A stretch of DNA of 64,000 nt from Thermoplasmata archaeon (GTDB taxonomy: Archaea; Thermoplasmatota; Thermoplasmata; Thermoplasmatales; Thermoplasmataceae). The stretch is taken from contig JAJZJR010000003.1 in the NCBI GenBank assembly GCA_021810045.1, forward strand, positions 62,001 through 126,000. Direction: 5' to 3'. The position numbers were made by a program, and so were the translations under genes. The notes beneath the pieces were generated by a model. The model did not search any database, was not told the DNA's origin, and saw only the letters and a program-made list of their open reading frames with translations. This document shows, piece by piece, positions 4,476 to 37,696 of this stretch (position 1 is its first letter; the number at the start of each line of letters is the position of its first letter).

Positions 4476-4718
4476 ATGGCAGCACTAGATGGAACAAAAG
4501 TTGACACTTCCCTTTGGAAGAGGCATTTCTGGAGAAGATTCATGGGATTTGGACTCCTTGTTATCGGGGTGGCTTTTTATGTCATCTGGTCAGTTCTATA
4601 CAGTACGTGGACGGATATAGGTCTGTACTCTTTCACAATTGTTCTTGTCGTCTTTGGTCTTCTGGAGCTATGGCTTGTTCAGGAAATGATAAAGAAAGAG
4701 GACGCGGCCTCAAACTGA
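4476..4718 (+). CDS. Small two-helix membrane protein, unknown function
   Basis: The 80-residue protein has two hydrophobic helices, around residues 24-43 and 50-70, and a basic stretch (WKRHFWRR) before the first. Its C-terminus is charged (MIKKEDAASN). I do not recognise a family. It reads divergently from the ABC exporter and ends tail-to-tail with the VirB4-like gene, overlapping it by nine bases. Coding is supported by the ATG start, sensible hydropathy and the lack of a competing gene on the opposite strand. Confidence 0.65.
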   Translation: MAALDGTKVDTSLWKRHFWRRFMGFGLLVIGVAFYVIWSVLYSTWTDIGLYSFTIVLVVFGLLELWLVQEMIKKEDAASN

Positions 4719-6830
4719 TTCTTTCAGTATTTTATCTTCGAAATTGCTCGTTATAACTCTGAGGGTATGGCAGTAAGTGCCATCTGAGACCACACATTCA
4801 GAATACTTGTGATGGCTGCCTCCTAGAAGGTTTTCCGGCCCAGGTATATCAAATCTGTCAATTTTTAGAACTTTCCTGTGCGAATCGCTTATGTTTCTCG
4901 TCCGGAAGATGAAGATTCTGTTGCTGTTATATGCTATATTTGAAGAGGTCCTACTCAGAAAATCGTCAGTATTCTGAGATATATTCATTATTGAGGTTTT
5001 GTAATGTCTCGAATGCCTTATCATTGTCCCGAGCAACTTGGCATTTGAAAGGTTCCTTAGGATTATGTGGCATTCATCTATGGCCAGAAGCAAGCTCTCA
5101 GATTGGTTTTCTATCATACTCCTGTTCAAAGCTGCAAGCATTTCGCCAAGAATCTCATCGTTTTCAAGTTCTTCTATTTCAGGCTTGATTATTCTTATGT
5201 CAGGATAAACAGATGTTTGCCATTCATCGTCAGTTTTCTTTATCCCCGAGAGCACGGATTCTACATATGAACCCACAGAATACTCTTTGCAATTTGATCC
5301 GAAAAGTTTGCAGCTGTATTCATTCAGGGGATCGAAAATGATCACTTTCCGGCAAATTCCTGATTGTAAGGATCTCATAAGAAATATTTTGGTGAAATAG
5401 GATTTACCTGATCCAGTTTCTCCGATGATAAGGGAATTGTAGGAATTCTGGGTAAATGGGTTGTATCTCACAACTTTTTCACTTAAGTCATCAATTCCAA
5501 GGACTATCCCCTCATCACTGCCACTTTCATCCCTGTAAATTGGTAGGATCCCAGCTATACTTTGTGTATCCATCAGGTATTTTTGTCTGTCCGGATAAAG
5601 GTAGAAATTTTTCAGTTTATGTAGAATTGCCCGTGAATTCTGTTCGGTATAAAACCCCAATAACTCAAGGGAAGTTCTTATTCTCTGTACCCTTGAATTA
5701 AGAATTGCAGGATGATCTGCATAGATCCTTATGGCCATTGTTATGTCAAATACTTTATTGCCTTGTTTTTCACAACTCAATTTCATACTCTCAAGGTCAG
5801 AAATCTGCCGTTGCAGATACTCAGTCTCTCTGGACATTCCCCTGGAAAACCTATACTCTGTTTTCCTCTCTGACAAAAGGCGGTTTACGTATTGCAGTGA
5901 GTTTCCGGAACTGGCTTTTCTAATAGAAAGGATAATGTCAAATGGTAAATTCATGCTTTCCAGCAGTGTCTGGTAAAAGGGGCCGGAAGAAGAAGACGAA
6001 TTCTTCACTACAAGGTTCGTTGTATACTTGTCTGTTTTTGCGTAATTTGCATACTGCCTCGCCTTGATCTTTTCTTTGATTTGATCCCCATCCATCTTAT
6101 TCTGGTTTTTTGGATTGACTTGGCCTGAAAGGCGATTGAGAATGTCCATGAGAACTTCCCTGGTTCCAATTTCTACTAACTGAAATCCGGATTTATTGAA
6201 ATATTGTGCCAGTTCAGATGACTCATTCAAAAGTTTATTGGCAGAGGAGGCAAAGTTGCTCTGATCAAGACTTGTAGTTATGCGGAAATATGAATGGTGG
6301 TTTTCCCCGAATCGCCTGGAGAACCCACCTATATCAGCAGGATGCAGGGAAAAGAAATCTGCATTGGACTTTAAACGGTTGAGTGCATCAGAAAGTCCAG
6401 TAAGTACATCTTCCTGACTTTCACGACGCATAGAGAGGATGTATAGGCCAGGAATATGGAAAATTATGGACAGAAATCTGCCGCTGTTTACAAACAAATG
6501 TCCGTTGTATTCAAGAAAGGAAGCCTCTATGGCCAAAGATTTCTCTCCTTTGGGAATAATCATTCCTGCAAGGGCCTTCCGGTTGTCCTTATTTCTCCAT
6601 ATGGTGAAAAAGATCAGAATAGAGACGGATGCCCACAAAACTGATACAATGAGACCTACCCGGGACAGTAGTAATGAAATGCACATCGATATAATCAGCA
6701 GAAGCAAATCCATTATGGGGAAACCTGAGATCGTGGCTTTGTACTGGTATACATTGGTTGGTAAATGGTGCTTTATCAATTCACTCCCTCTTTCCGGTAC
6801 TTCAACTCTTCGTCCAGAAGGGTTTTCCAT
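4710..6830 (-). CDS. VirB4/CedB-like DNA-transfer ATPase
   Basis: The 706-residue P-loop ATPase belongs to the VirB4/HerA group that powers conjugation pili and archaeal DNA import. Two hydrophobic helices lie at about residues 38-78, followed by a long N-terminal domain. The motor has Walker A GETGSGKS (470-477) and Walker B LLLAIDECHII with Asp585-Glu586. The later QNTDDFLS segment fits the family motor. It ends an operon with a VirB6-like protein and a small pilin-like protein. Two starts are possible: the ATG at 6830, which overlaps the upstream gene by 55 bases, or a TTG at 6779 that overlaps its stop as TTGA. The N-terminal membrane helices recall membrane-bound CedB. The assignment to the Ced/Ted system is inference. 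Confidence 0.82.
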   Translation of the reverse strand: MENPSGRRVEVPERGSELIKHHLPTNVYQYKATISGFPIMDLLLLIISMCISLLLSRVGLIVSVLWASVSILIFFTIWRNKDNRKALAGMIIPKGEKSLAIEASFLEYNGHLFVNSGRFLSIIFHIPGLYILSMRRESQEDVLTGLSDALNRLKSNADFFSLHPADIGGFSRRFGENHHSYFRITTSLDQSNFASSANKLLNESSELAQYFNKSGFQLVEIGTREVLMDILNRLSGQVNPKNQNKMDGDQIKEKIKARQYANYAKTDKYTTNLVVKNSSSSSGPFYQTLLESMNLPFDIILSIRKASSGNSLQYVNRLLSERKTEYRFSRGMSRETEYLQRQISDLESMKLSCEKQGNKVFDITMAIRIYADHPAILNSRVQRIRTSLELLGFYTEQNSRAILHKLKNFYLYPDRQKYLMDTQSIAGILPIYRDESGSDEGIVLGIDDLSEKVVRYNPFTQNSYNSLIIGETGSGKSYFTKIFLMRSLQSGICRKVIIFDPLNEYSCKLFGSNCKEYSVGSYVESVLSGIKKTDDEWQTSVYPDIRIIKPEIEELENDEILGEMLAALNRSMIENQSESLLLAIDECHIILRNLSNAKLLGTMIRHSRHYKTSIMNISQNTDDFLSRTSSNIAYNSNRIFIFRTRNISDSHRKVLKIDRFDIPGPENLLGGSHHKYSECVVSDGTYCHTLRVITSNFEDKILKESV

Positions 6831-7825
6831 GGCATTTCTTCCTTTGCAGCACCATTTTTCGACATTTGTTCTAACGAATTTTTCTCTTTCAATGGCAGTG
6901 TAAGCCCATTTTTCATTGTGTTTTGCAGGCTTTCTCCCATGAACGGTTTAGAGGCTAAACTGGTCATATCAATAGCTTTTCCTGCAACTCCTGAGAACGA
7001 TAAGCCTCCAAGAAAACCAAGTACTGGTGCACTTAGGAAACTGTTTCCCGTTGTGAACAAAAGACCGGGGATTATGGATGGAAGGAAGAGAAATGCAAGC
7101 TGCAGGGGAACATCAGGTCCAAATATGTGGGCAAGATAAAGGGATAATAATACCAGAAAAGGATAGAAGGACATCTCAATAATTATTTCCCACATCATAC
7201 CAGCCAGTCTTTTGCCTCTTCCCGTTGAGCCAAGTATGGTTGCAAATGGGAGGATAACTATGGAAAAGAGCATAAGTGCCTGCCTGAGCATTAGAAATGC
7301 GAAAAGACTGGTAACTGAGACAAAATATCCTGTCATGGCGAAAAATTCTACAATAATACCCAAAGTTCCGTTTTTTATGTTTGAAGAATGTGAAAACAAT
7401 GGATAAGATGAAAAATTGAGAAAATTATACCAGCTGAAACCTGTTGAACTGAATAGTGTTGAATATGCACTTCCAAATAAAGTCATCAACCATTCCACTA
7501 CAAAAATAGAAATTCCGCCCAGGAGAACAGCAACTATCCATTTCAGGAGAAAAGAATAACTGGATCCAGGTCTGGAAACAGCGTTCAGGATCAATGTTCC
7601 TATGGATGCAATCATAAGTACTATTACGCTGAATTGAAAGAATAAGCCATCAAAAACAGTCTGTGTCAGGTACTCATACCTGTTGTTGCTGATAAACGGC
7701 AGGAGAAATGTGTAATGTGGGTTTAACCCATAATATATGGTAGTGTACCAAAGCACCCCTATTAGGGATTTATAGATCTGATCTAAAAACTGAAAAACAC
7801 TCAGTATAATGGATGTGGCCAGCAT
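6776..7825 (-). CDS. VirB6/CedA-like polytopic membrane protein
   Basis: The 349-residue integral membrane protein has roughly seven to eight hydrophobic segments in its first 275 residues and a hydrophilic tail of about 70 residues. This architecture matches VirB6/TrbL and archaeal CedA channel components. A long stretch rich in Gly, Ser and Phe lies between about 110 and 160. It is followed by a helix pair around the RQALMLFSIVILPFA segment, as in TrbL-type proteins. The gene lies 12 bases after the pilin-like gene and overlaps the VirB4-like gene. No enzymatic motif is visible. The function rests on topology and operon partners and needs profile or structural confirmation. Confidence 0.68.
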   Translation of the reverse strand: MLATSIILSVFQFLDQIYKSLIGVLWYTTIYYGLNPHYTFLLPFISNNRYEYLTQTVFDGLFFQFSVIVLMIASIGTLILNAVSRPGSSYSFLLKWIVAVLLGGISIFVVEWLMTLFGSAYSTLFSSTGFSWYNFLNFSSYPLFSHSSNIKNGTLGIIVEFFAMTGYFVSVTSLFAFLMLRQALMLFSIVILPFATILGSTGRGKRLAGMMWEIIIEMSFYPFLVLLSLYLAHIFGPDVPLQLAFLFLPSIIPGLLFTTGNSFLSAPVLGFLGGLSFSGVAGKAIDMTSLASKPFMGESLQNTMKNGLTLPLKEKNSLEQMSKNGAAKEEMPWKTLLDEELKYRKEGVN

Positions 7826-7837
7826 GGCGATTCAGTT

Positions 7838-8125
7838 TTACCCAGTTATCAGGTAGTTTACTATTGTGTACAACAGGCCGCTTACAGCTACCACATAAAT
7901 GAAGGTACCAATCAGGGCATTTTTCAATCTTATCCGTGCTTCATATCGCCTGTTCTCATCGGCACCGAAAAAACCCAATGCGATAGGAATCCATAGCACT
8001 GCAATAATTATGGCAGATACAGATGCTACTACTGCATAAATTCGGTTCAATACACCCTGTATCTGACCCGAAACGGGCAATTGTGTATTTTGTATAATTA
8101 AGTAAATAAGTGTATTAAGTTCCAT
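7838..8125 (-). CDS. VirB2/CedA1-like two-helix pilin candidate
   Basis: The 95-residue protein is the first gene of the DNA-transfer operon. It has two hydrophobic helices, about residues 28-52 and 70-92, separated by a short, highly charged loop (GADENRRYEARIRLKNA). Two helices around a basic loop is the plan of conjugative pilins (VirB2/TraA) and of archaeal CedA1/TedC, whose filaments are known to be homologous to conjugation pili. The N-terminus lacks a class III prepilin signature. A TATA box at 8149-8156 places the transcription start at or next to the ATG. Other small two-TM proteins could look alike, so the call depends on its VirB6- and VirB4-like neighbours. Confidence 0.68.
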   Translation of the reverse strand: MELNTLIYLIIQNTQLPVSGQIQGVLNRIYAVVASVSAIIIAVLWIPIALGFFGADENRRYEARIRLKNALIGTFIYVVAVSGLLYTIVNYLITG

Positions 8126-8148
8126 TCATTAAAAGAATGTAATTGTGG

Positions 8149-8156
8149 TATAAATT
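8149..8156 (-). promoter_or_regulatory. TATA box of the VirB2/VirB6/VirB4-like operon
   Basis: Read on the minus strand the element is AATTTATA, centred about 26 bases upstream of the ATG at 8125. That spacing is typical of archaeal promoters with leaderless transcripts. It also overlaps the stop codon of the thioesterase gene, so the DNA-transfer operon has its own promoter inside the end of the upstream gene. Confidence 0.55.
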
Positions 8157-8649: not shown

Positions 8650-8750
8650 TGAAGTTCCATTGCTCAACGCATATTTACCTTTTCTAACAAAATTATTCCA
8701 GCACACCAGAAATTTGCCAATTCTCTTAAACACTCAATGCTTTATGGTCT

Positions 8751-9431
8751 ATGGGTTACGAAGGAAGCCAGTTGAAAAAGGCTGCAGCAGAAGAAGCATT
8801 GAAACTTGTTAAGGATGGCATGATTTTGGGCTTGGGGACAGGTTCAACAGTAAAATTCTTTCTCGAAGGGCTTTCAGGACTTGTCAGGAATGGGATTAAA
8901 GTAAAAGGTGTTCCAACTTCTAAGGAAACTGCACGTCTTGGGAGAGAACTTGGTATAGATATCGATGAAAACTATGCCGGCGAGATTGACCTGGATGTCG
9001 ACGGGGCTGATGAGGTAGATTCCAATGGCCACCTGATAAAGGGAGGTGGCGGTGCTCTTCTAAGGGAAAAACTGGTTGCATTCAATTCAAAAGAAGTATG
9101 CATAATAGTGGATCAATCAAAATTTAAGGATCAAATTGGCGGATTCGGACTCCCAATTGAGATATTTGACTACCTGCATTCCAGTACTCAAAGAAATATC
9201 GAGAAACTGGGTGCAAGATGCACCTTAAGGAAGCAGGGGGAATTCATTACAGACAATGGAAACATCATTCTTGACTGTGATTTCGGATTGATACAAAATC
9301 CGGAGGAACTTGAAATGTCGTTAAAGAAAATACCGGGGGTTGCTGAAGTTGGACTCTTCAATGGATTGTGCCACAAGATTATAATTGGTACTCCAGATGG
9401 AATAAAAAAGATGGATATTGAACCAGCTTAG
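8751..9431 (+). CDS. rpiA: Ribose-5-phosphate isomerase A
   Basis: This enzyme interconverts ribose-5-phosphate and ribulose-5-phosphate for nucleotide and pentose metabolism. The 226-residue protein shows all RpiA motifs: the GLGTGSTVKFF phosphate loop, the catalytic DVDGADEVD, and the LIKGGGGALLREK loop with its base. The length is normal. The gene is divergent from the thioesterase, and its 3' end overlaps that of the HTH gene by four bases on the opposite strand. No anomaly is seen. Confidence 0.95.
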   Translation: MGYEGSQLKKAAAEEALKLVKDGMILGLGTGSTVKFFLEGLSGLVRNGIKVKGVPTSKETARLGRELGIDIDENYAGEIDLDVDGADEVDSNGHLIKGGGGALLREKLVAFNSKEVCIIVDQSKFKDQIGGFGLPIEIFDYLHSSTQRNIEKLGARCTLRKQGEFITDNGNIILDCDFGLIQNPEELEMSLKKIPGVAEVGLFNGLCHKIIIGTPDGIKKMDIEPA

Positions 9432-31981: not shown

Positions 31982-32404
31982 ATGTCCCATGACCTCGATA
32001 AAGGGGCTCATTCCGTTTACTCTCTCTATTATCATTTTATCCAGGTGGTGAAGTACCGCAGGAAGGTCTTCACCAATGATGAACTGGTGGACTTCCTCAA
32101 GACAAAGGTAAGGGAAATAGCGGAGAGATTCGATGTCGAGGTGGTATCAATAGAATGTGACGTGGATCATTTCCACATGCTGTTCAGGGGAACTCCGGTA
32201 CTGAGGATCACCGAATTTGTGAATGCGGTGAAGACCATTACATCCAGGGAAATCCAGAGAAATTTTCCAGATGTGAAGAAAGTTCTGTGGAAGGGCAAGA
32301 TGTGGTCACCATCATACTTCCTTGCAACATCCGGACAGGTAACATTGCCCATACTTATGAAGTATGTTGAATCGCAGGAGATCAAAGGAGATCAAGCGAA
32401 TTGA
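31982..32404 (+). CDS. tnpA: IS200/IS605 Y1 transposase TnpA
   Basis: The 140-residue HUH endonuclease cuts and joins the single-stranded element ends. The metal-binding HUH motif is His63-Phe-His65 in VDHFHMLF. The nucleophilic tyrosine is Tyr128 in LPILMKYVES. The Y..FIQVVKYRRKVF N-terminal strand is typical. The length is close to other TnpA proteins. Its stop overlaps the TTG start of tnpB, so the genes are coupled. Confidence 0.93.
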   Translation: MSHDLDKGAHSVYSLYYHFIQVVKYRRKVFTNDELVDFLKTKVREIAERFDVEVVSIECDVDHFHMLFRGTPVLRITEFVNAVKTITSREIQRNFPDVKKVLWKGKMWSPSYFLATSGQVTLPILMKYVESQEIKGDQAN

Positions 32405-33603
32405 AGACATACCGGTTCAGGCTGTACCCGTCTGCGGATCAGGAAAGAAAGCTCAACGAACAGCTGGAGTCGTGCAGACAGCTGTACAATTCATTCCTGC
32501 TTGAAAGAAGATATGCATACAGGGGACAGAAGAAGTCCCTCACATACAATCACCAGCAGAACCAGATACCTGAACTCAAGCAGGAATTTGAGGAATACAG
32601 GAACATTCATTCCCAGGTCCTTCAGGACGTTGCACGGAGAGCGGAACGTGCATACCAGAACTTCTATCGCCGAATAAGGGAGAAGAAGCAGGGTGTCAGG
32701 CAGAAAGCAGGATTCCCACGTCTGAAGGGAAAAGGACAGTACAGGTCACTGACCTACACTCAGTCGGGATTCCACCTCATGGAAAACGGACACCTGAAGC
32801 TATCAAAGATCGGAAGACTAAGAATGTTCCAGCACCGTGACATAAAAGGCGAAATAAAGACACTGAATATATCACGGGACGGATCAGGAAAATGGCATGC
32901 ATCATTCTCAGTAAAGCAGGACAACTTAGTATTTCGGCCTGAACATACGGGTAACACCATCGGAATAGATGCAGGACTGCTGCATCTCACCACGATGAGT
33001 GACGGAACTGTGATCGATCCCCCTCACTTTCTCATGAAAAGCGAGAGGAGGATCACGAAGGCACAGAGGAACCTTTCACGCAGGAAGAAAGGATCAAGCA
33101 ACAGGAAGAAAGCAAGAATCACTCTCTCGAAACAGCATAAGAAGGTAAAGGATCAGAGAGAGGACTTTGCTCACAAGCTCTCAAATGAGATAGTGAGGAA
33201 CAATGATCTCATTGTCTTCGAGGACCTGAACATAAGAAACATGGTGAAGAATCACCATCTGGCGAAGAGCATTGCGGATGCTTCATGGAACACCCTGATA
33301 CAATACACAACCTACAAGGTTGAAAGTGCCGGTAAGCTTGTGGTATCAGTGGATCCGGGAAACACATCACGTACATGCTCAAGGTGTGGATGGAAGAAGG
33401 AATCACTTGGATTGTCCGAAAGGACATTCCTCTGTGAGTCCTGCGGTCTTGATATCGATCGGGATCTCAATGCCGCAATCAACATCCACAATAAAGGAAT
33501 GGAAAAGGTAGGGAGGGGCACTCCCGAAGTTACGCCTGTGGAGATCGGGGCACTACCCGCAAGGGCATCCCTGATCGGCGAAGCAGGAAGCCCCGTCCGA
33601 TAG
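32401..33603 (+). CDS. tnpB: TnpB RNA-guided nuclease (OrfB)
   Basis: The 400-residue TnpB is an ancestor-type Cas12-like nuclease guided by an omegaRNA transcribed from the element's right end. It starts with TTG, then KTYRFRLYPS. The RuvC residues are all present: Asp190 (GIDAG), Glu274 (FEDLNI) and Asp355 (DRDLNAAI). The zinc finger uses Cys326, Cys329, Cys345 and Cys348. The 3' coding end overlaps the predicted omegaRNA. Only some segments match the second copy closely; others diverge strongly. Confidence 0.94.
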   Translation: MKTYRFRLYPSADQERKLNEQLESCRQLYNSFLLERRYAYRGQKKSLTYNHQQNQIPELKQEFEEYRNIHSQVLQDVARRAERAYQNFYRRIREKKQGVRQKAGFPRLKGKGQYRSLTYTQSGFHLMENGHLKLSKIGRLRMFQHRDIKGEIKTLNISRDGSGKWHASFSVKQDNLVFRPEHTGNTIGIDAGLLHLTTMSDGTVIDPPHFLMKSERRITKAQRNLSRRKKGSSNRKKARITLSKQHKKVKDQREDFAHKLSNEIVRNNDLIVFEDLNIRNMVKNHHLAKSIADASWNTLIQYTTYKVESAGKLVVSVDPGNTSRTCSRCGWKKESLGLSERTFLCESCGLDIDRDLNAAINIHNKGMEKVGRGTPEVTPVEIGALPARASLIGEAGSPVR

Positions 33604-34127: not shown

Positions 34128-34811
34128 TTGATTTCAAATTCTCAAGATTGGAAAACTTTGAATACGGAAGTTGAAAAGTGCAGTAAATGTCAGAGACTGG
34201 TAAAATTCAGGGAAGAAGTGCTTTCCGGTTCAAGGAAATATGCAGATGAAACTTTCTGGAGAAAACCGGTAACAGGATTTGGAGACCACAATGGAAGGCT
34301 TGTTGTAGTAGGACTTGCCCCTGCAGCATCTGGGGCAAACCGCACAGGCAGGGTCTTCACGGGTGATAAAAGTTCAGAAGTACTTGTTTCAGCTTTTCAC
34401 AGGGTCGGCTTATCCAATCTTTCCAATTCAGTTTCAAAGGATGACGGTCTCGTTTATACCGATTTATACCTAACCCTCGCAGTCAGGTGCGTACCTCCTG
34501 ATAACAGGCCAGCAAAAGCTGAGGTGAATAGCTGCAAAGGTTACCTGGTAAAGGAATTAAATTTGCTTTCTAATGCAAAAGCAATAGTTGCACTGGGATC
34601 AATTGCTTTGGACACCCTGAAGCTAAGTCTTTCCGATCTGGGTTACAAAGTGAATGGAATGAAATTTCAACACGGGAAATACTACGATCTGGAAAAGTTG
34701 AGAGTATATTGCTGCTATCATCCAAGTCCAAGGAACATAAATACAGGAAGGACTTCGGTAGAGGACATAACTGACGTGATCGGTGAGGCTTACAGGTTCG
34801 CATCAGCTTGA
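34128..34811 (+). CDS. Family 5 uracil-DNA glycosylase (UDGb)
   Basis: This enzyme excises uracil and some deaminated purines from DNA in heat- or acid-stressed archaea. The signature GLAPAASGANRTGRVFTGD is exactly of family 5. The HPSPRNINTGR motif near residue 195 is the second active-site loop. Cys18 and Cys21 (KCSKCQRL) with later cysteines fit the iron-sulfur cluster of this family. The start is TTG at 34128. Its end overlaps the end of the next minus-strand gene by 22 bases. Confidence 0.92.
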   Translation: MISNSQDWKTLNTEVEKCSKCQRLVKFREEVLSGSRKYADETFWRKPVTGFGDHNGRLVVVGLAPAASGANRTGRVFTGDKSSEVLVSAFHRVGLSNLSNSVSKDDGLVYTDLYLTLAVRCVPPDNRPAKAEVNSCKGYLVKELNLLSNAKAIVALGSIALDTLKLSLSDLGYKVNGMKFQHGKYYDLEKLRVYCCYHPSPRNINTGRTSVEDITDVIGEAYRFASA

Positions 34812-35743
34812 CGCACTGTGTCATTGATGTTTTTAAGGAGATCGAGAATATCACTGATCCTTGAGATGAAAGCGGAGACCTCTTCCAGTATAGTGCCTGG
34901 GGAAAAACCTGCTGTTACCACAAATGAATCTACGATCATTTTTACCACGGCGGGTCCAATTGGTTTCCTGAAAATGAGTGTCCCCGAATTATCAGCAAGT
35001 TTTATTTCCGAGTCGAACAGCCCTTCTCCCTTCCTCACATCATAAACAGCATGATCAAGACTGATATCATTGGAGGTAACTTCTATCCACAAGCCTCTGT
35101 GATAGTTATTTTCCTGGAAAATAAAAATTTCATGAATTTTGTCAGCAACCCGGAGGTATCCAAGCCCATCTGAAATTAGCTTCCTACCATTCAAATCAAT
35201 GGAATAGCGGTCTGTCCGCCTCCAAGAAAGCCTTGCAATTCTGTTGTCCTCGTACCATTGACTTTCATAGCCTTTGGAAAAATGGGATCTGTCAGGAAAC
35301 TGGAATTTGCTCAGGACAGAAGGATCTGGAGAATCTGAAATGAGGTCAAGTGCAATCCTTTCATATTCATCGTCAGAAACAACCGACGAAGAATCCATTT
35401 CAATCATTGTACCATGGATCCAGATCGTGGCAGAATCATGATTTCTATAATTCCTGCCAAGAAACAGGACATAATCTTTCACTTCCCTGGAGCGTATCAT
35501 TGAATAACCACTGGAGAAATCCTTAAGCATTGATTTTGGAAAACCTGGAAAAAACCAGTCTAGAAAAAACTGTTTAATCCTTACTTCCTTGCCGCCAATC
35601 CTGAGGCAGTACCTGATGCTTGGCCATTTAAGATCATGGATCCTTACAGATATGTCATAAGGTTCCCGTGCCTTCGGTTTATAAACAAGAAAGGGAAGTC
35701 TGTATTTTCCTGCCTCTTCCAAAGAGCCAAGTATTTTTATCAT
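34790..35743 (-). CDS. Unknown protein paired with HerA/VirD4-like ATPase
   Basis: The 317-residue soluble protein has no recognised domain. It is rich in beta-type segments (YDISVRIHDLKW, GLWIEVTSND, GTLIFRKPIG) and ends with an amphipathic helix (IDLLKNINDTVRQ-like). It starts directly after the stop of the ATPase gene, so they are one transcript and probably one complex. A structural or DNA-binding partner is conceivable. No catalytic motif is visible. Confidence 0.7.
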   Translation of the reverse strand: MIKILGSLEEAGKYRLPFLVYKPKAREPYDISVRIHDLKWPSIRYCLRIGGKEVRIKQFFLDWFFPGFPKSMLKDFSSGYSMIRSREVKDYVLFLGRNYRNHDSATIWIHGTMIEMDSSSVVSDDEYERIALDLISDSPDPSVLSKFQFPDRSHFSKGYESQWYEDNRIARLSWRRTDRYSIDLNGRKLISDGLGYLRVADKIHEIFIFQENNYHRGLWIEVTSNDISLDHAVYDVRKGEGLFDSEIKLADNSGTLIFRKPIGPAVVKMIVDSFVVTAGFSPGTILEEVSAFISRISDILDLLKNINDTVRQADANL

Positions 35744-37696
35744 CTAGTTAACTCCGAAGATGTCTGAAATTGAGGCAACTGACGAGTCACCACATATCTT
35801 TTTCAATGCTTTTTGGGAGTTTGATGTACCAAAAATTTTTCCAATTTTTTCCCCTGGAAACTCCAATCTGGTCACTCCTTCTTTTATCATTTGAGCATAG
35901 ATGAAGGAACGGATTTCACTAAAAGGCATCTCCGTGAGAGATTTAGTGAATGTACCTTGAAATAGGTGTTCCATCCTGAATTTTCTTAATTTTTCAAAAG
36001 TATAGAAATTAAAACCGTTGTCATACTCAAGAATACTTATCTTAGAGAGCAGATCTCTTTGGTTCTTCTCCAGTGATTCCATTATTTTGAAACCGTTATT
36101 CTCAATGTATTGCAGAATCTTTACGTACAATTGTGAAGAGGATCCGGGTGGTGTTATGAAAATCAGCGTTTTTCCGGAATAATTGATGATCTTCTCAGTG
36201 ACCCTTCCAATATTTACAAGATCAGACACCTCTACTTCAACAAAAATTGTGCTGTTGTTGAATTCAAAGTAAAGGTCCGGATAAATCCCATTGAAAGACT
36301 TGTGCCTGTCACTTTCTATTCCTTTCCTGAAAAGATATTCCTGAAATTTCAATATGAGGAATTCATGCAAATCCGTTTCATTATCCTCATTCGACTGCTC
36401 TTCCATGGTTGTACCCAGGTCTAAAAGTGATCTTTCCCTGATTTCCTGAAATAAGGGCGGGTCTTCATGGATAGCAACCACCATAGGTGTATAGGAAAGT
36501 GGGCCGGAAATTCCCTGTTCATCCTGTGACCAGATTACGGCATGGTGCACAGGCTGGGCTTTGAGTACACGTCTCAGTTTATGATCCAGTTCTCCTGTAA
36601 AGAAATTTGACGATATCTCCATTGCATCATCTTCAAAAACATTGAAAGATACAACATTCCCAACGTTTCCCCTTATTGTTTCGGAAAGGCTGTTAAGCCC
36701 CCTGCCGAGAAACTGTGTTGCCATAATTACTCTGAAACCGAATTTTCTTCCCTCCCTGAGAAGACGGTCAAGAATATTTCCAGGAACAAGTTGTGCCTCA
36801 TCAAAAATCATGTAGATCGGTTTGTCCGTATCCGGATTATAGGATCGCATTCTCTGCAGCCAGAGTTTCAGAAGCAGGAGCATCCCTATTATCTTGAAGG
36901 AATCATCGGGTACAACATCTCTCCATATTTCAGGTATTATTACTGAACTCCTGCCAGTGAAAAGATCAAGAAGCCTGAAGGAATCCTGGCTCCCGGAAAT
37001 CAGGTTCTTGATTCCCGGGTCTGTAAGGAGTGGCAGGAGCTTATTTATGGAGCTTGTGACGTACTGGTTCCATCCTCTCCAGTCTGCAATCTGCATTTTC
37101 AGGAAAGATTTCAGTTCCAGGTTTTCTGTGCCGGAAATGAATTTTCTTATGCTGCTTCCGTCAAGAAGAAGGTTCAGGAGATCACCAAGTGTTGACTGAG
37201 GATTCTTCCTCATAAGTTCTCCTAGAATGGAAGTAAATATCACTTCCAGTCTTGGACCCCATGTTCCATGTGAAAAAACTCCCTCATTTGCAAATGCATC
37301 CTTTATCCACCCAGCAGCAATATTGCTGGATTCCAGTGTACTGTCAACGCTTATTGAATTGAGTTTTATGGCTACTTTACAGTTTTCCTTATTCAATCCA
37401 ACGGGAGATATTATTGCACTTTTATCCGGGAACATTGAGACAACTTCCTTCCCCAGGTTTCCATGAGGGTCAAACAGAAAGACCGAACCTTCATTTCTCG
37501 TTATTATTCCCTTTATCAGTACTTTCAGAAAATTTGATTTTCCTGATCCCGTTTTCCCCATTACAATAAGGTGGCGATGCAACCTGTCCGCTTTGAGGAA
37601 AATATCTCTCCCTGTTGTTGATTTTCCCAGCTCAATACCGTCGTCCAGAGCAAAATTAATGGGTGAATTGGAAATAATGTTGCTGTGCCGGTACAT
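35744..37696 (-). CDS. HerA/VirD4-like ATPase with possible nuclease-like C-terminus
   Basis: The 650-residue motor ATPase belongs to the FtsK-HerA group. It has Walker A GKTGSGKS (47-54), SVFLFDPHGN typical of VirD4/HerA, and Walker B IYMIFDEAQLV with Asp299-Glu300. The sensor segment MATQFLGRGLN follows. After the motor (about 420) comes a 230-residue extension with PDLYFEF (473-479) and VEVEV (486-490), a layout similar to PD-(D/E)xK nucleases but with the Lys replaced. It lacks N-terminal TM helices. Its start overlaps the FAA hydrolase stop (TAATG). It may be a coupling protein, a HerA-type repair motor or a defence protein. Confidence 0.78.
   Translation of the reverse strand: MYRHSNIISNSPINFALDDGIELGKSTTGRDIFLKADRLHRHLIVMGKTGSGKSNFLKVLIKGIITRNEGSVFLFDPHGNLGKEVVSMFPDKSAIISPVGLNKENCKVAIKLNSISVDSTLESSNIAAGWIKDAFANEGVFSHGTWGPRLEVIFTSILGELMRKNPQSTLGDLLNLLLDGSSIRKFISGTENLELKSFLKMQIADWRGWNQYVTSSINKLLPLLTDPGIKNLISGSQDSFRLLDLFTGRSSVIIPEIWRDVVPDDSFKIIGMLLLLKLWLQRMRSYNPDTDKPIYMIFDEAQLVPGNILDRLLREGRKFGFRVIMATQFLGRGLNSLSETIRGNVGNVVSFNVFEDDAMEISSNFFTGELDHKLRRVLKAQPVHHAVIWSQDEQGISGPLSYTPMVVAIHEDPPLFQEIRERSLLDLGTTMEEQSNEDNETDLHEFLILKFQEYLFRKGIESDRHKSFNGIYPDLYFEFNNSTIFVEVEVSDLVNIGRVTEKIINYSGKTLIFITPPGSSSQLYVKILQYIENNGFKIMESLEKNQRDLLSKISILEYDNGFNFYTFEKLRKFRMEHLFQGTFTKSLTEMPFSEIRSFIYAQMIKEGVTRLEFPGEKIGKIFGTSNSQKALKKICGDSSVASISDIFGVN

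Follow-up and report, generated by a model that had tools for sequence, protein, structure and literature searches.

To date, domesticated DNA-exchange systems of archaea, Ced and Ted, have been described from Crenarchaeota only (PMC9905601, PMC11868833), and a late-2025 review, which credits a Thermococcus plasmid with the first case of conjugation in Euryarchaeota, mentions no chromosomal system there (PMC12857230). Here, we describe a three-gene operon located near the start of a 64,000-nucleotide stretch of DNA (the window) from contig JAJZJR010000003.1 of a Thermoplasmata archaeon, whose genome assembly comprises 2.26 Mb in 81 contigs and is 99.9% complete. The operon encodes a VirB2-like pilin, a polytopic protein suggestive of VirB6, and a VirB4-type ATPase. 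The matches of the small protein to two pilin families, the placement of the ATPase among VirB4 proteins, the VirB6 ranks in a fold search, and the presence of the genes as a conserved, chromosomal, relaxase-less set support the derivation of the trio from a type IV secretion system (T4SS), i.e., a conjugation machine.

Products of the Operon

The operon consists of three minus-strand open reading frames (ORFs) in the order two-helix protein, polytopic protein, and ATPase. Its features, with the evidence for each, are as follows.

8149..8154, minus strand: TATA element TTTATA (29 nucleotides before the pilin ATG; conserved in divergent loci)
7838..8125, minus strand: VirB2-like pilin, 95 residues, two-helix hairpin (T4SS_pilin, Mbov_0395 family, AlphaFold)
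6776..7825, minus strand: VirB6-like polytopic channel protein, 349 residues (hydropathy, AlphaFold, Foldseek, hhalign)
4710..6830, minus strand: VirB4-type ATPase with two N-terminal transmembrane (TM) helices (AAA_10, PDB profile, plasmids, tree)
6060..6779, minus strand: N-terminal part of the VirB4 protein, approximately residues 18–257, weakly VirB3/PrgI-like (split ORFs in relatives, Pfam)
4710..5432, minus strand: RecA-like ATPase part of the VirB4 protein (motif scan and alignment)

All three ORFs claimed in the initial annotation are present on the minus strand, and the TATA box it proposed is real. TTTATA lies exactly 29 nucleotides before the first ATG in about half of 22 loci compared (the window, 20 regions from relatives, and one from a second collection, representing 17 genera of the family), including the divergent loci L044 and L046. 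Such spacing is what would be expected of a leaderless archaeal transcript. The pilin gene is separated from the polytopic gene by 12 nucleotides. Read from its first ATG (6830), which overlaps the polytopic gene by 55 nucleotides, the ATPase has 706 residues. The real start is probably the TTG at 6779, giving 689 residues, because its 4-nucleotide overlap (TTGA) with the polytopic stop parallels the ATGA overlaps of relatives and because the ATPases of relatives begin at the same residue.

The small protein has TM segments at residues 32–50 and 71–89, joined by the loop FGADENRRYEARIR, in agreement with the two helices and charged loop described initially. AlphaFold modeled it as a helical hairpin, with a long helix (residues 3–52), a short turn, and a kinked helix (residues 57–94), at a predicted local distance difference test (pLDDT) value of 82. 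The Pfam model T4SS_pilin (PF18895) matches the window protein with E = 7.7e-5, below the curated cut-off; it matches 22/22 family pilins scanned singly (best 6.8e-7) and none of 19 unrelated controls, two-TM proteins of comparable length taken from the same set of genomes. The NCBIfam model NF045849 (Mbov_0395 family pilin-like conjugal transfer protein) likewise matches 22 of 25 members (best 9e-8), the window protein having E = 3.3e-4, again below the curated cut-off. On sequence evidence, the 95-residue protein is a VirB2-like pilin. No cleavable signal peptide is apparent on it, and nearly all pilins of the window's family lack the third hydrophobic segment that a TedC-like signal peptide would form; in the alignment, some of them begin only ~10–15 residues ahead of the pilin core. 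The operon contains no class III prepilin gene, in line with the initial annotation. Internal homology between pilin and VirB6, as reported for CedA1 and CedA, was looked for and not found (hhalign probability 0.4%).

The polytopic protein has five TM segments predicted by hydropathy, and its AlphaFold model has a pLDDT of 75 and a predicted template modeling score (pTM) of 0.62. It has no Pfam match, and PDB profile searches gave nothing useful. When the model was compared with 350,542 PDB chains using Foldseek, ranks 1, 2, 3, 5, and 6 were TrwI/VirB6 of R388. The model thereby suggests that the protein is VirB6.

The ATPase carries Walker A (GETGSGKS, residues 470–477) and Walker B (LLAIDE, residues 581–586) motifs and two N-terminal TM segments (residues 37–55 and 59–77), so that the motif scan recovered every feature ascribed to it earlier. 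AAA_10 was found in 14/14 members of the ATPase family; it matches the window protein with E = 2.9e-12, and DUF87, the HerA central domain, is weaker there (E = 2.4e-9). The best PDB profile match is VirB4 (4ag5, E = 7.8e-13), which stands above every HerA-like chain. Its closest plasmid matches, of the VirB4/TraC type, lie on plasmids of haloarchaea, Firmicutes, and Sulfolobus and have E values of 1e-44 to 1e-24 with the family profile; some of these matches start well before the ATPase domain and reach into the VirB4 N-terminal region. In a phylogenetic tree, all Thermoplasmata ATPases group with the VirB4s of haloarchaeal plasmids in a single clade (97/98), nested in a wider VirB4 clade that also takes in Firmicutes and Sulfolobus plasmids (96/97). 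The wider clade is apart from the genome's HerA-like protein, from the coupling-like proteins described below, and from a second ATPase of family f3; HerA is represented in this tree by a single sequence on a long branch, as no further HerA outgroups were found among relatives at E ≤ 1e-30. Sequence comparisons thus identify the window ATPase as a VirB4 type rather than a HerA or coupling protein.

Conservation in the Family and Architecture across the Class

The order of a small two-TM protein, a protein with four to seven TM segments, and an ATPase is kept in 22/22 loci, so that the synteny of pilin, VirB6, and VirB4 extends over all 17 genera compared. The order persists in L043, L047, L048, and L049, whose flanking genes are entirely different, which argues against a chance association. 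The polytopic ORF is short in L046 (246 residues). Identity to the window is 43–84% for the small protein, the best conserved of the three, 19–62% for the polytopic protein, and 21–55% for the ATPase. The small-protein profile matches 88 of the 117 genomes of the order. Within the window's family (f1), the pilin occurs in 34 of 35 high-quality genomes (≥90% complete and ≤5% contamination) and is single-copy in all but one genome. In a single-sequence search, ATPase homologues were found in nearly every genome of this family and seldom elsewhere in the order. The same housekeeping genes flank the operon in many genera of the family, and each family's VirB4 proteins fall in a single clade, the pattern that vertical inheritance would give. 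Position, copy number, and tree agree that the system is chromosomal, non-mobile, and vertically inherited.

Expanded forms are present in four other families, namely f3 (L059–L061 and L068), f4 (L066 and L132), f5 (L062, L063, and L067), and f7 (L126–L129 and L133, as well as L130, where the pilin lies inside a larger ORF). The polytopic proteins at the same place in these families are homologous to that of the window (hhalign 99.6%, E = 6.9e-25). Their pilins, judged by eye, have signal-peptide-like N-termini, and their VirB4 is usually encoded by two genes, a TM piece of 190–290 residues followed by an ATPase of 520–730 residues. In f4 and f5, a TM protein of 99–139 residues is located between the two pieces. 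Several pilin-domain proteins of 120–594 residues are encoded in tandem in family f5, and large secreted proteins are encoded upstream of the operon in f5 and f7 (744 residues with Ig-like repeats; 570–2293 residues).

The pilin arrays of f5 are located at L062:7826-12685, L063:6926-10678, and L067:5262-8035; several of their proteins combine a large N-terminal ectodomain with a C-terminal pilin domain and resemble the VirB2 arrays reported in Patescibacteria. In f3, a second HerA/FtsK-like ATPase (677 residues) follows VirB4 at L059:12332-15009 and L068:1779-4446, and after it comes a protein that weakly matches GINS/Sld5; on the other side of these two loci are genes that resemble, by eye, topoisomerase VI subunits. 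A pilin gene without a VirB6 or VirB4 neighbor is present in family f4 (L131, genome G039, 8686-9042), which may be an orphan pilin or part of a relocated system.

Within the window's family, VirB4 is split near residue 240 into overlapping or abutting ORFs in eight sampled loci (L034, L037, L039, L040, L041, L044, L045, and L051) and fused in the others. The two states occur even within one genus, L034 being split and the window fused. The tree requires at least five split/fusion changes, and a single origin of the fusion was rejected (p 0.001). The N-terminal pieces weakly match three Pfam models of the VirB3 family (PrgI, 0.0026; TcpE, 0.048; VirB3, 0.098), and PDB profile searches with their alignments gave nothing useful. 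As a lead, the window VirB4 may be a VirB3–VirB4 fusion.

Candidate Accessory Genes and Proposed Function

Two further genes of the window, 28 kb from the operon, have a possible connection with it.

35744..37696, minus strand: candidate VirD4/TrwB-like coupling ATPase, 650 residues, soluble (TrwB_AAD_bind, PF10412)
34790..35743, minus strand: 317-residue partner of the coupling-like ATPase (adjacency in related loci)

The ATPase matches TrwB_AAD_bind with E = 1e-9 and 38.2 bits (cut-off 20.5), is present in most f1, f3, and f4 genomes, and is a candidate for the coupling protein of this system. Its 317-residue partner, encoded directly downstream, has no Pfam match; the two genes are adjacent in eight related loci and near each other in a ninth, and we infer that the partner may be included as well. 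Approximately 2 kb from the VirD4-like gene, adjacent plus-strand ORFs (31982-33603) resemble, by eye, TnpA and TnpB of IS200/IS605.

Three T2SSE-type (type IV pilus) ATPases are encoded elsewhere in the genome. By analogy with the role of Ups for Ced, type IV pili could provide cell contact or aggregation. Convergent with the operon, and adjoining it in 19 of the 22 loci, is a gene for an 80-residue two-TM protein (4476-4718, plus strand) with the near-invariant motifs Y..W......W.D.G..S and FG. It was rejected as a fourth component: the order's high-quality genomes all have it (51/51), even those without a detected pilin, and also at unlinked sites, which argues that it is not a specific part of the system.

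We consider it rather probable that the operon represents a domesticated, minimal, relaxase-less T4SS that is fixed in the Thermoplasmata chromosome and exchanges chromosomal DNA. This proposal is made by analogy, because the parts list, the missing relaxase, the fixed place, and the vertical conservation match those of Ced and Ted. The VirB4-type ATPase would be anchored under the VirB6-like channel by its own N-terminal, VirB3-like helices and would drive two-helix pilin subunits out of the membrane to form a hollow pilus of the conjugation type. Through pilus and channel, single-stranded chromosomal DNA would then pass from one sister cell to another and be recombined there, as in the exchange by Ced and Ted. 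Formation of a pilus and DNA as its cargo are thus what we infer, and, by analogy only, import appears likelier than export. There is about an even chance that the class Thermoplasmata (Euryarchaeota) possesses in this system a third archaeal machine for DNA exchange, independently streamlined, a sexual apparatus of acidophilic archaea that was cut to three genes in the window's family by loss of the pilin signal peptide and repeated fusion and splitting of the VirB3–VirB4 motor.

Several observations weigh against the reading as a T4SS that exchanges DNA. The VirB6 fold matches are weak (probability 0.66–0.82, E 0.2–0.8, template modeling score ~0.3) and below usual significance, and neither the polytopic protein nor its relatives have a VirB6/TrbL Pfam match; the VirB6-like label of the initial annotation is therefore backed by the top fold ranks but not by a profile. 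The pilin has no significant fold match in the PDB by Foldseek, its fold being too simple to be informative, and no CedA1, TedC, or VirB2 match in PDB profile searches. No CedA1 or TedC chain is found among the best 50 of its 123 Foldseek matches, although two-helix hairpins carry little information. The coupling-like ATPase is absent from family f5 and from the f1 genera g10, g18, and g19, each of which has genomes that retain the cassette, and its absence from these three genera suggests that it may not belong to the system. Furthermore, the operon is neither fused to nor regularly accompanied by genes for recombination or repair.

The same T4SS-derived machine could instead deliver proteins, such as toxins to competitors, or form an adhesive pilus, which we regard as unlikely but as the main rival reading. 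No PF03432 relaxase is encoded in the whole genome, other relaxase families not having been searched; this absence, with which the relaxase-less state noted initially agrees, would fit such a use. The large secreted surface proteins preceding the f5 and f7 operons recall contact-dependent systems, and the relaxase-less T4SS of Patescibacteria, with the same pilin family, has apparently been co-opted for other functions (PMC12102498). However, the f1 operon has no linked effector or surface gene, and the archaeal relatives of known role move DNA, likewise without relaxases, namely Ced and the VirB4/VirD4 of Thermococcus pT33-3 (cited in PMC12857230).

Two other explanations are far less probable. 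That the operon is a remnant or active integrative conjugative element rather than a host system could be proposed from its closest ATPases outside the class, which sit on conjugative plasmids; yet it is single-copy in 34 of the 35 high-quality family genomes, keeps the same housekeeping flanks in many genera, shows one VirB4 clade per family, and comes without a PF03432 relaxase in the genome. This reading is largely refuted and was rejected on conserved position and single copy. It is equally hard to believe that we are dealing with a repair motor of the HerA type next to an unrelated, transporter-like pair of membrane proteins. Although DUF87 does match the ATPase, AAA_10 matches all members and scores above it in the window protein, VirB4 outranks every HerA-like PDB chain, and the small protein has matches to two pilin families. 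The tree also separates the ATPase from the genome's HerA-like protein and groups it with VirB4, with the single long-branched HerA as the reference. Profile ranking and tree led to the rejection of the HerA reading.

With a T4SS that is chromosomal and family-wide in Thermoplasmata, a second phylum of archaea would be added to those with domesticated conjugation. The high recombination seen in populations of Ferroplasma (Tyson 2004 and Eppley 2007, as reviewed in PMC2704941) would also gain a candidate mechanism, and the system could be a route of gene trading among these acid-loving archaea. As it has only three genes, it could allow tests of what a conjugation pilus minimally requires.

Comparison with Known Systems

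Ced of Sulfolobales (CedA1/CedA/CedB, with CedD/CedE) resembles the window system in being chromosomal and without a relaxase, and in having a two-helix pilin apparently without a signal peptide, a VirB6-like polytopic protein, and a VirB4/HerA-type ATPase. In many relatives, parts of the ATPase are split over two polypeptides, just as CedB and CedD each cover part of the VirB4 N-terminal domain (PMC11868833). Ced, however, belongs to another phylum, and no counterpart of CedA2 was recognized here; the window system is one contiguous three-gene operon and is accompanied by a VirD4-like protein in most genomes. Nor was a CedA1 match found for the window pilin, by sequence or fold, in the PDB searches. 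Ted of Thermoproteales (TedC/TedA/TedB) has the same three components, and the signal-peptide-like N-termini of the f3, f4, f5, and f7 pilins are as in TedC. It differs in that the window pilin lacks such a start, that no TedC match was found, and that no HerA, Rad50, or ParA genes are linked to the operon in the window's family. Accordingly, the relatedness to Ced and Ted put forward in the initial annotation stands as far as a T4SS derivation is concerned (pilin families, VirB4 tree, and fold ranks), but does not extend to a CedA1 or TedC match by profile or fold.

Among plasmid systems, the T4SS of haloarchaeal conjugative plasmids (for example, Halobacterium plasmids, L069, L070, and L076) contains the closest VirB4 group in the tree, and VirB2-like pilin-family genes lie upstream in L069 and L076. 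These systems are plasmid-borne, however, and have a larger VirB4, and the Thermoplasmata pilin and VirB6 profiles match their proteins at best with E = 1.4e-4. The MPF-FATA-type T4SS of Gram-positive bacteria and Patescibacteria, together with the Mycoplasma integrative conjugative element encoding Mbov_0395, shares the same pilin families and a set of VirB3/PrgI-like, VirB6-like, and VirB4 proteins, the Patescibacteria system being mostly without a relaxase. These systems are bacterial and have parts, such as VirB1 and VirB8, not seen here.

Within Thermoplasmata, a Cuniculiplasma cluster (CSP5_1185-1189/CPM_1190-93) was listed in 2016 as T4SS components (PMC5155288). It comprises VirB4 (arCOG04034), a multipass protein (arCOG05369), a membrane protein (arCOG05340), and a Thermoplasmatales-only membrane protein, with a separate VirD4-like ATPase (arCOG04816). 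By description, these are very probably the same genes as those of the window operon. VirB4 was also listed in E-plasma (PMC10354927). The suggestion that the set is probably undescribed must be narrowed by these two listings; it holds for the pilin and for a Ced/Ted-like function, which neither paper names. PMC5155288 also gives no mechanism, distribution, or comparison with Ced and Ted, and in a search that mostly did not reach subscription journals, no paper was found that recognizes a pilin in this cluster or puts forward DNA exchange as its function. In comparison with these earlier accounts, the class-wide distribution, the pilin assignment, the repeated splitting and fusing of VirB4, and the VirD4-like protein encoded 28 kb away are new here.

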